Assembly (NCBI GenBank): GCA_021780075.1
Contig: JAJXZL010000005.1
Coordinates: 1 to 64,000, forward strand
DNA length: 64,000 nucleotides
Source of the DNA: Acidobacteriota bacterium
Lineage (GTDB): Bacteria > Acidobacteriota > Terriglobia > Terriglobales > Acidobacteriaceae
Direction: 5' to 3'
In this document: positions 11,256 to 13,264 of the stretch, in pieces
How the letters are laid out: each line of letters begins with the position of its first letter
Position numbering within the stretch: position 1 is the stretch's first letter
Notes under the pieces: model-generated
What the model was told of the DNA's origin: nothing
What the model saw: only the letters and a program-made list of their open reading frames with translations
The model's database searches: none
Position numbers and translations under genes: made by a program

Positions 11256-11684
11256 TTAACGTCCTCTCAGCAGGCCGCCCGCAAATGCCCGGGCGTATTC
11301 CCTGCCTTCTCCGCCTCCCAGTCCCTGCCGCAGCGCGTTATTGATGCGCCGTTGGAACGGATCGGAAGAAATTTCCGCGGCCTGGGGAGCGGGGTATGAA
11401 ATTGGCTCCTCCATCTTATGCATCAACGCAACTGGGATACTTACGACCTCCTGACCAGAGCCGGGAGGAGGATCCACAGTCGGCGGAGTCACATCAGGGA
11501 AAGTTACCACCGCGGATGGGTCGACTGCGCTAGCTGGCGCATTTGTTCCGAGAAGCGGCTTGAGAACTTCCACAACTTTCTCGACCCGTTCCTTCTGAAT
11601 ACGCAGCTGCTCATACTTATTGATGATGTCGCTCAGTTCTGAGATTGCCTCGTCGTATGCAACACGATATACGTCTTGTCTCAT
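11256..11684 (-). CDS. Tandem paralog 1: small coiled-coil protein of unknown function
   Basis: I do not recognise this 142-residue protein. It shares an N-terminal helix pattern with the two genes just to the right: Y-R-x-A-Y-x-E-A, then about 20 residues, then E-Q-L-R and K-x-x-x-E-x, ending in L-K-P-L-x-G. The heptad spacing suggests a coiled coil over about residues 5-45. A proline-rich linker of about 60 residues follows. The conserved C-terminal block SSDPFQRRINNALRQ continues to GREYARAFAGGLLRGR. The ATG at 11682-11684 is preceded by GGAGTG. There is no signal peptide or membrane segment, so it is probably cytoplasmic. It is the 3'-most gene of the three and lies 550 bases from its nearest paralog. 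Confidence 0.65.
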   Translation of the reverse strand: MRQDVYRVAYDEAISELSDIINKYEQLRIQKERVEKVVEVLKPLLGTNAPASAVDPSAVVTFPDVTPPTVDPPPGSGQEVVSIPVALMHKMEEPISYPAPQAAEISSDPFQRRINNALRQGLGGGEGREYARAFAGGLLRGR

Positions 11685-12234
11685 ACTCACTCCAGGGGAG
11701 TAGGCTAGCACGGATACTGCAAAAGTAATCCAACAAAGCAACCGTGGAGTTAATTACCAAGGTACCGGTACGCTTTCGCTACTTCGGTGCTGCCTCCCCA
11801 CATGGCGCTCCTCAACCGGCGCAGGAACTCAAAGTGGCCTGGCTGTAGCACGCGATGGAAGGCTTCCAAGAAGCATTGTGGCGGCCTAATGGGCACTCGA
11901 AGAAGTGAGCAGGTGTGGAACATGACTCGTGTCAAGGAATTGATTCCGAGTTGGTCGCGCTGCCGCGGACTCAAATCTGATCACAGCCTGCTGCGGGCGA
12001 ATTTTGCGATGCCGACTGAAGTACGTCTCCGGGTCTGGAGCCGGCAGTCTATAGAAATGGAGCCATTGTCGTGAAGTTCACGCACGACCGCCTGGGAGGT
12101 CAGCGCGCCCCAAGATGAGCGGATTCAACCAGCGCTGCCGCAGTACGCACGCGCAATGTGCCCGGAGGTCGCTGCGTTCTCAGAATGAGACAGTGGTTCA
12201 CCTGGCGATGCCACATCCCAGTCTCCTGTCGCCG
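11685..12234. other. 550-base gap between paralogs 1 and 2, no gene recognised
   Basis: Short open frames on both strands look like chance ORFs and match neither the paralog N-terminal helix nor its C-terminal block. The gap could hold the decayed remains of another family copy, but I see no sequence that proves it. Confidence 0.4.
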
Positions 12235-12693
12235 TTACAATCCTGCGCCGAATCCGTGGCAGTATTCCCTAATCCCTCTGAATGAGGAGCGATGCTTCAA
12301 AGCACTGTCTATCCGCCGCTGAATCGGGTCAGAGGACACTTCCTCGTCCTCTCGAACCACCCCAGGCTCCAGTTCCTCGAACTGTTGCAGAAGATCGAGC
12401 GTCAGGGCAACAGCCGGCTGAGCCGGTTCAGATGGAGGCTCCTCCAGTTGAATCCGTTCAACTGGCGCCTCCACAATCTGTTGAACAATTTGCTGAACCT
12501 GTGCAAGTGCGGGGTCTTCGGCACATTGCTCCGTAGCGGTGCTCTGCGCTTCAAATCCCGCAAGCGGCCTGAGCGCCTCCACGGCTCTTTCTAATTGACC
12601 TTTTCGCAGGCTGAGTTGGTTGAACTCTTTGAGAATTACTCTGAATTCCGAGTTCGCCGCCTCGTATGCAATACGATAAGCACTGAGTTCCAT
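12235..12693 (-). CDS. Tandem paralog 2: small coiled-coil protein of unknown function
   Basis: A 152-residue member of the same family. The N-terminus MELSAYRIAYEAANSEF, then LKEFNQLSLRKGQLERAVEA and LRPLAG, aligns with paralogs 1 and 3. The middle is acidic and rich in glutamine and proline (QIVQQIVEAPVERIQLEE). The end, SSDPIQRRIDSALKHR then GIREYCHGFGAGL, matches the C-terminal block of paralog 1. Conservation at both ends around a divergent, low-complexity linker suggests two functional modules joined by a flexible spacer. The ATG at 12691-12693 is preceded by GGAGAA. Function is unknown. Confidence 0.65.
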   Translation of the reverse strand: MELSAYRIAYEAANSEFRVILKEFNQLSLRKGQLERAVEALRPLAGFEAQSTATEQCAEDPALAQVQQIVQQIVEAPVERIQLEEPPSEPAQPAVALTLDLLQQFEELEPGVVREDEEVSSDPIQRRIDSALKHRSSFRGIREYCHGFGAGL

Positions 12694-12893
12694 GGGTTCT
12701 CCACGCGAGCAGTCCAAATCCTGATCGCACTTACTTGGAGCGTATGGCGCTGTACCCGGAAGGAACAGGACAATTTCCCGAGCCCTGCTCGATCGCCACA
12801 CGCAAACACCTGCTCCGTGTGACTCTAGCGACTAGAGCTCGAACAAATTGGCTCCCTGCGCCACGCGGGCATCCCGACACTTTAAACAGACAT

Positions 12894-13115
12894 TTAGTAA
12901 GCGTAAGGTGACGCGCCAACAAGCTGTGTATTCGATGCACCCGAGGCCTTTTGATCCAAGCCTGCCTGTACATCTACGCCGGCTAGCGGCCTGAGAGCGT
13001 CGAGAGCTCTTTCGATGCCTTCTTTTCTAAGGCGCAGTTGTTCAAACTCTGTGAGGATTTCTGTGAGTTCCGTGTTCGCCTCATTGTATGCGTAGCGATA
13101 AACTTCTTGTTTCAT
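12894..13115 (-). CDS. Tandem paralog 3: short member lacking the C-terminal module
   Basis: Only 73 residues. The N-terminal helix is the best preserved of the three: MKQEVYRYAYNEANTEL, then TEFEQLRLRKEGIERALDA and LRPLAG. After this the protein ends within about 25 unrelated residues and has no SSDP-QRRI block. GGAGG stands about four bases before the ATG at 13113-13115, the strongest Shine-Dalgarno of the set, so it is likely translated. It may be a truncated duplicate, or a functional short form that could interact with the full-length paralogs through the coiled coil. Confidence 0.6.
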   Translation of the reverse strand: MKQEVYRYAYNEANTELTEILTEFEQLRLRKEGIERALDALRPLAGVDVQAGLDQKASGASNTQLVGASPYAY

Positions 13116-13264
13116 TATTCCTCCAGGCGCGTAGTCTAGCATGATGCAAAATCGTACATGACATTTCTTTTCTGCAACTTTCCTGCTATTACCCTTAGAA
13201 CCGCATATCTTCCGCGTCTCATGATGTTGCAAGCCTCGATATCTTCGCGCGCAACATCTTCCAG

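Follow-up and report, generated by a model that had tools for sequence, protein, structure and literature searches.

The analysed window, a stretch of 64,000 nucleotides from an acidobacterial genome assembly, contains three open reading frames on the minus strand, all with ATG starts, whose products share a predicted N-terminal helix of 45 residues. A preliminary description had placed three paralogous minus-strand genes at 11256–13115; this range is exact, and the frames are open and match one another at E-values down to 2.6e-14. The genes, two of their Shine-Dalgarno sequences and the candidate promoter features discussed below are:

12894–13115, minus strand: gene A, short member (73 aa), N-terminal helix module with a short end, P-x-Y-x-Y
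13121–13127, minus strand: Shine-Dalgarno sequence CCTGGAG of gene A
13133–13141, minus strand: extended -10-like sequence TGCTAGACT, upstream of gene A
13167–13181, minus strand: AAAGTTGCAGAAAAG, upstream of gene A, second element type, read from the sequence
12235–12693, minus strand: gene B, long member (152 aa), helix module, Ala/Pro/Glu-rich linker and SSDPIQRRI tail
11256–11684, minus strand: gene C, long member (142 aa), predicted helix at residues 3–45, disordered linker, predicted helix at 109–122 (SSDPFQRRI tail)
11690–11696, minus strand: Shine-Dalgarno sequence CCTGGAG of gene C
11702–11710, minus strand: extended -10-like sequence TGCTAGCCT, upstream of gene C
11722–11729, minus strand: ATTACTTT, upstream of gene C, family-enriched element

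Sequence conservation among the three genes

Fifteen positions between residues 6 and 46 are invariant across the three proteins (Y6, R7, A9, Y10, A13, E16, I20, Q26, L27, K31, E35, L41, P43, L44 and G46), which bears out the common N-terminal block that had been described. Among these three, a second block near the C-terminus, SSDP-(F/I)-QRRI, is found in genes B and C only, again as described, and a GGAG-type Shine-Dalgarno sequence precedes each of the three genes, as had also been claimed. A search of the window's genome (3.88 Mb, 99.54% complete) with the 152 aa protein of gene B returned the other two proteins at E 2.6e-14 and 1.4e-10, and on these values the likeness among the window copies is beyond chance; the same query found a fourth copy on a separate contig (E 4.5e-5), and a profile search added a fifth. 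The interval between genes B and C (11742–12234) contains approximately 490–550 bases without a family reading frame and exceeds that between genes A and B.

The preliminary description had recognised no named family, and our searches of Pfam, NCBIfam, PHROGs, PADLOC and the PDB sequences likewise gave no credible match. The three window proteins on their own gave no E-value under 0.03 in Pfam, NCBIfam or PHROGs. The best values among 44 members of the family were E 2.9e-4 in Pfam (two members, kinetochore model) and 6.7e-4 in NCBIfam (one member), and these, like the best PDB match (E 0.014, a myosin), were read as coiled-coil background; the best PADLOC value (E 0.0023, one member, cyclase model) was attributed to chance or the same background, and no PADLOC model of anti-phage defence was accepted among the 44. 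At the Rfam gathering score the window contains only a tRNA. Among the literature matches listed, titles and the opening parts of abstracts hold nothing on the family.

Distribution and copy number

A profile of 44 rows (threshold E <= 0.001) matched 20 of the 80 genomes of the genus, and 14 of the 42 that are of good quality, the window's three genes being included. Three of those 20 genomes (G487, G519 and G522) carry a single copy each, with weaker scores. Beyond the genus the profile matched five of 150 genomes sampled from the bacterial family, namely the window's own, one more of the genus and three weak cases in other genera, and in a sample of 297 genomes from the phylum it matched only the window's own. 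The first three-row alignment, run against named genomes, found five loci, all of them in acidobacterial metagenome assemblies, and plasmids and phages searched with the 142 aa protein gave no match. One further match, in G088, was taken as chance on account of its internal stops.

In total 83 rows were collected; removal of a duplicate row of G012 and an outlier in G091 left 81 genes of the genus, on which gene counts and tail typing are based. They number from one to nine per genome, occur both as an array and as singletons, and begin with ATG in 79 cases. For upstream counts, element spacing and hydrophobicity period we used 77 rows, that is, the 83 less one joined G012 duplicate, two each from the near-copy genomes G505 and G513, and one from G091. 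The preliminary description had proposed searching acidobacterial genomes for tandem arrays, and had held that an absence of homologs, or homologs frameshifted throughout, would speak against it; the search found matches in 20 of 80 genomes of the genus, with arrays of up to four copies and open homologs under purifying selection. Judged from sequence, these genes constitute a real and undescribed protein family that appears lineage-restricted, known from these searches in one branch of soil acidobacteria.

Purifying selection

Rates of substitution were compared by the rough method of Nei and Gojobori in 29 pairs of orthologs or likely orthologs. Whole-gene dN/dS was 0.03–0.36 in 27 pairs, all well below 1, while the other two were saturated; these ratios are to be read with the proviso that dS exceeds 1 in many pairs and is under 0.25 in four. 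In comparisons with the genome G034 the ratios were 0.18 for gene A, 0.27 for gene B and 0.20 for gene C. The N-terminal part is not always more constrained than the rest, and in one pair it reached 1.54, on a dS of only 0.03. The family genes are under purifying selection, in agreement with the earlier suggestion of selection rather than random reading frames.

Genomic context and inheritance

We compared 11 array stretches (the window, L045–L052, L066 and L068), eight of which hold a gene of the same cluster, represented in the window by a CNNM/CorC_HlyC protein (Pfam E 6.9e-45). This gene adjoins a family gene directly in six stretches, is separated from it by one other called reading frame in L049, and in L051 stands some 4.6 kb off. 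It is absent from the fetched stretches L050 and L052 and from L068, where the contig ends; these three have their opposite flank (clusters c4, c8 and c7) in common with L048, L049 or L051, and the site therefore looks the same. The number of copies at the array site ranges from one (L046 and L047) to four (L048), and G486 has four copies in a row. In G012 two tandem copies are fused in one open frame of 216 aa (L049:6387–7034, minus strand).

Several singletons also keep their position across genomes; in both the window's genome and G034, for instance, a lysine-decarboxylase-type gene and a tetrapyrrole-methylase gene flank one of them. The places of array and singletons are thus kept, a pattern more in keeping with vertical inheritance and duplication than with a mobile element. 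The tree, which has few columns and leaves many forks open, joins gene A (100/98) and gene B (100/99) to their respective counterparts in G034 and places gene C beside its own with weaker support and four singletons nested in; most of the tripling therefore seems to predate the divergence of the two genomes. Among the neighbours, most of them clustered and eight of them named, no partner gene is common to the different kinds of site. Hence, of the undescribed coiled-coil 'system' that had been proposed, the undescribed family stands, with a conserved end predicted to be helical, while no recurring partner accompanies it.

Predicted protein structure and tail types

A monomer of the 142 aa protein of gene C was modelled with AlphaFold from 11 sequences. 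The model has a helix at residues 3–45, with ten-residue mean pLDDT of 87–97 as far as residue 40 and 67 over residues 41–50, then a middle stretch mostly below 50, and then a helix at 109–122; overall the mean pLDDT is 65.5 and the pTM 0.28, and being a monomer the model is silent on oligomers. Hydrophobicity along the N-terminal columns of the 77 rows peaks at a period of 3.5, the value seen in coiled coils. In long members the linker consists of 18% Ala, 15% Pro and 14% Glu. The predicted anatomy is thus one of helix, linker and helix.

Under a loose rule the tails of the 81 genes comprise 43 that are DPxxRR-like, six TVxTR, five with a W-x-x-R end, four with a Y-x-Y end, four that are His-rich and 19 others outside all types, some of which resemble DPxxRR-like variants. 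The types recur across genomes. The short copy had been described as retaining only the N-terminal module; the module is indeed kept, but gene A also has a conserved end of its own, P-x-Y-x-Y, which occurs in four genomes: the window's, G034 (in the ortholog of gene A), and G028 and G486, where it is carried by short array copies whose orthology to gene A is not settled by the tree. This retention indicates that the short copy is a paralog conserved as such and not a truncated one. The His-rich end, which might bind metal, belongs to singletons (L133:5222–5431, L134:5275–5514, L132:4873–5094 and L135:4918–5130).

Upstream regions

A motif search of 49 upstream regions returned AAAGTAAT, on either strand, with a score of 60.6 against 14.7–23.3 for four base-shuffled control sets run with fewer restarts. 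With 297 upstream regions as controls, taken from the same stretches but belonging to other genes, AAAGTAA/TTACTTT was found in 20 of 77 family upstream regions and two controls (Fisher p 3.5e-13, to be taken as a guide only, this being the best of many 7-mers and the rows being related), RTTACYTT in 22 of 77 and three controls, and GTTGYAG, a second element type, in 17 of 77 and nine controls. A -10-like sequence, TGnTAnn(C/A)(T/A), was recognised in 37 of the 77. In 13 of these 37 the element stands 53–55 nt upstream of the -10-like site in one orientation, against a mean of 1.07 per 3-nt window, a comparison in which position matrix and spacing window were picked on the same data and the rows are related. 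Seven genomes and about eight paralog groups are represented among the 13 well-spaced promoters, none of which is in the window's genome.

In the window, ATTACTTT lies about 19 nt from the -10-like sequence of gene C, closer than in the 13 well-spaced members, gene A has the second element type, and gene B has neither type clearly. Counted over the whole window, neither pattern stands out in frequency (gene C element pattern, four occurrences against 2.14 expected; -10 pattern, five against 4.54).

With the aim of finding co-regulated genes, 11 genomes were scanned using reversed patterns as controls. ATTACYTTNGGGT gave eight matches against two for its control: four at family promoters, three overlapping a long open frame (one near its start) and one (L155) outside the listed frames. 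RRGTTGYAGAARNAA gave 12 against six and is thus little better than its control; three of its matches are at family promoters, six inside long frames and three unflagged (L143, L145 and L147), the first of which reads by eye as the interior of a dehydrogenase gene. No convincing non-family promoter with the element emerged from these 11 genomes, and we claim no further gene for the regulon. The dispersed copies, the recurring tail types, including one for the short copy, and the upstream element enriched in the family all go beyond the preliminary description.

A probable sister family and a protein with a similar helix

Matches beginning at the helix were also found in four genomes (G091, G206, G525 and G529) of another genus, g49, of the same bacterial family. 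The helix of this putative sister family aligns with that of the window family from residue 1 and without gaps to residue 34 (hhalign probability 91%, E 8.9e-7), and the two have an acidic, proline-containing linker and tandem copies in common; they differ in the tail, which is SLRxxGWP in the sister family and DPxQRRI in the window family. Kinship is likely on this alignment, bearing in mind that the sister family was found via the window family's own profile and that coils resemble each other. Tandem, overlapping sister-family genes with the recurring SLRxxGWP tail are seen in G091 (L138:4225–5186, minus strand) and also in L160 and L163, and the weak profile match in G091 is one of a tandem pair. 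Elsewhere in G091 a single frame of 289 aa combines the helix with a GGDEF (diguanylate cyclase) domain (L164:1501–2367, plus strand; Pfam E 6.2e-46); a search with A5 was blurred by its GGDEF domain, so that 23 of 100 genomes matched but only four with matches beginning at the helix.

A further acidobacterial protein, in G166 (L073:1123–1665, minus strand), has an N-terminal helix in a similar register to that of the window family (profile E 8.0e-5). It differs in its large C-terminal part, which is winged-helix-like by eye and has no Pfam match, and proteins of this type were not found in five family-carrying genomes.

Discussion

The reading that we tentatively prefer, while holding it somewhat more doubtful than probable, is that the family comprises co-regulated, oligomerising adaptors that present different short tails. 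The N-terminal helix (approximately residues 3–45) would most likely form homo- or hetero-oligomeric coiled coils, as its heptad period suggests, and a dimerising role would fit the fusion of GGDEF to the helix in the sister family. The disordered Ala/Pro/Glu-rich linker would then present a short C-terminal segment whose type varies with the paralog, be it a DPxQRRI amphipathic helix, a Y-x-Y end, TVxTR, a His-rich segment or a W-x-x-R end. In such an arrangement, presumably cytosolic, the helix would gather the copies and the tails would bind or position different partners. Many members are probably switched together by one DNA-binding regulator, because their upstream regions are similar and contain the TTACTTT element. 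Our reserve reflects the absence of all 13 well-spaced promoters from the window's genome; we also count against the adaptor reading the lack of a partner gene recurring across kinds of site, the pTM of 0.28, the 19 untyped tails among 81, the mere 37 of 77 upstream regions with a recognisable -10, and gene B, which has no clear element. A more elaborate version seems unlikely to us: a tail-swapping network of up to nine paralogs per cell, built on one assembly helix under a dedicated regulator, in which the tail set of each hetero-oligomer would pick the partners and the short copy would tune the mixture, with parallel versions in other acidobacterial genera, one of them using a diguanylate cyclase.

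Several other explanations need to be weighed against these data. The combination of helix, linker and tail with a short paralog, together with the Arg-rich tails of genes B and C, recalls H-NS, whose truncated paralogs antagonise it via mixed oligomers, and by analogy the family could be nucleoid or nucleic-acid-binding proteins with an oligomerisation helix and a basic tail for DNA or RNA, the short copy being the antagonist; this is improbable, in that no H-NS family matched among 44 members and other tails are His-rich, hydrophobic or very short. A long amphipathic helix followed by a short amphipathic tail helix might equally coat a membrane or granule surface through its N-terminal or tail helix, in a layout likened to that of phasins or PspA, but this too we consider improbable: Pfam scans of the 44 members returned no such family, and a period of 3.5 speaks for a coiled coil more than for a helix lying on a surface.

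That one conserved N-terminal module precedes several different tails might also suggest an export or loading signal carrying the tails as cargo, which is very unlikely given that genes for secretion or cargo loading do not recur next to the copies and that neither WXG100 nor any other signal family matched. The same features, multi-copy genes with a conserved start and variable end, are reminiscent of modified-peptide precursors with a leader and a variable core, an origin that is most improbable: tails are conserved within ortholog groups, Cys occurs in only 14 of 77 members, and no modifying enzyme recurs beside the copies, eight neighbours having been named and most only clustered. Short genes lacking a database family could in principle be chance reading frames or decaying sequence, yet 81 genes are open, 79 of them with an ATG start, and their positions are conserved; purifying selection contradicts this explanation, which is scarcely credible.

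What we have is a selected, multi-copy family with an enriched upstream element, absent from all libraries searched. Orphan families are common, but few have a shared cis-element through which the regulator and the condition of expression could be sought. If the adaptor reading holds, the family would be a compact bacterial case of one assembly helix with interchangeable tails. Two known systems invite comparison. H-NS and its truncated paralogs have an oligomerising N-terminus, a linker, a tail and short paralogs, a layout like that proposed here for the window family, which has no sequence match to H-NS in Pfam (E <= 0.01, 44 members). The PopZ-type polar hub is a small protein with helical ends and a disordered, Pro-rich and acidic linker; at the same threshold and among the same members there is no Pfam match to PopZ, its conserved module is at the other end, and the window family is multi-copy. 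We file this undescribed family with the lineage-restricted, expanded, small helical proteins.
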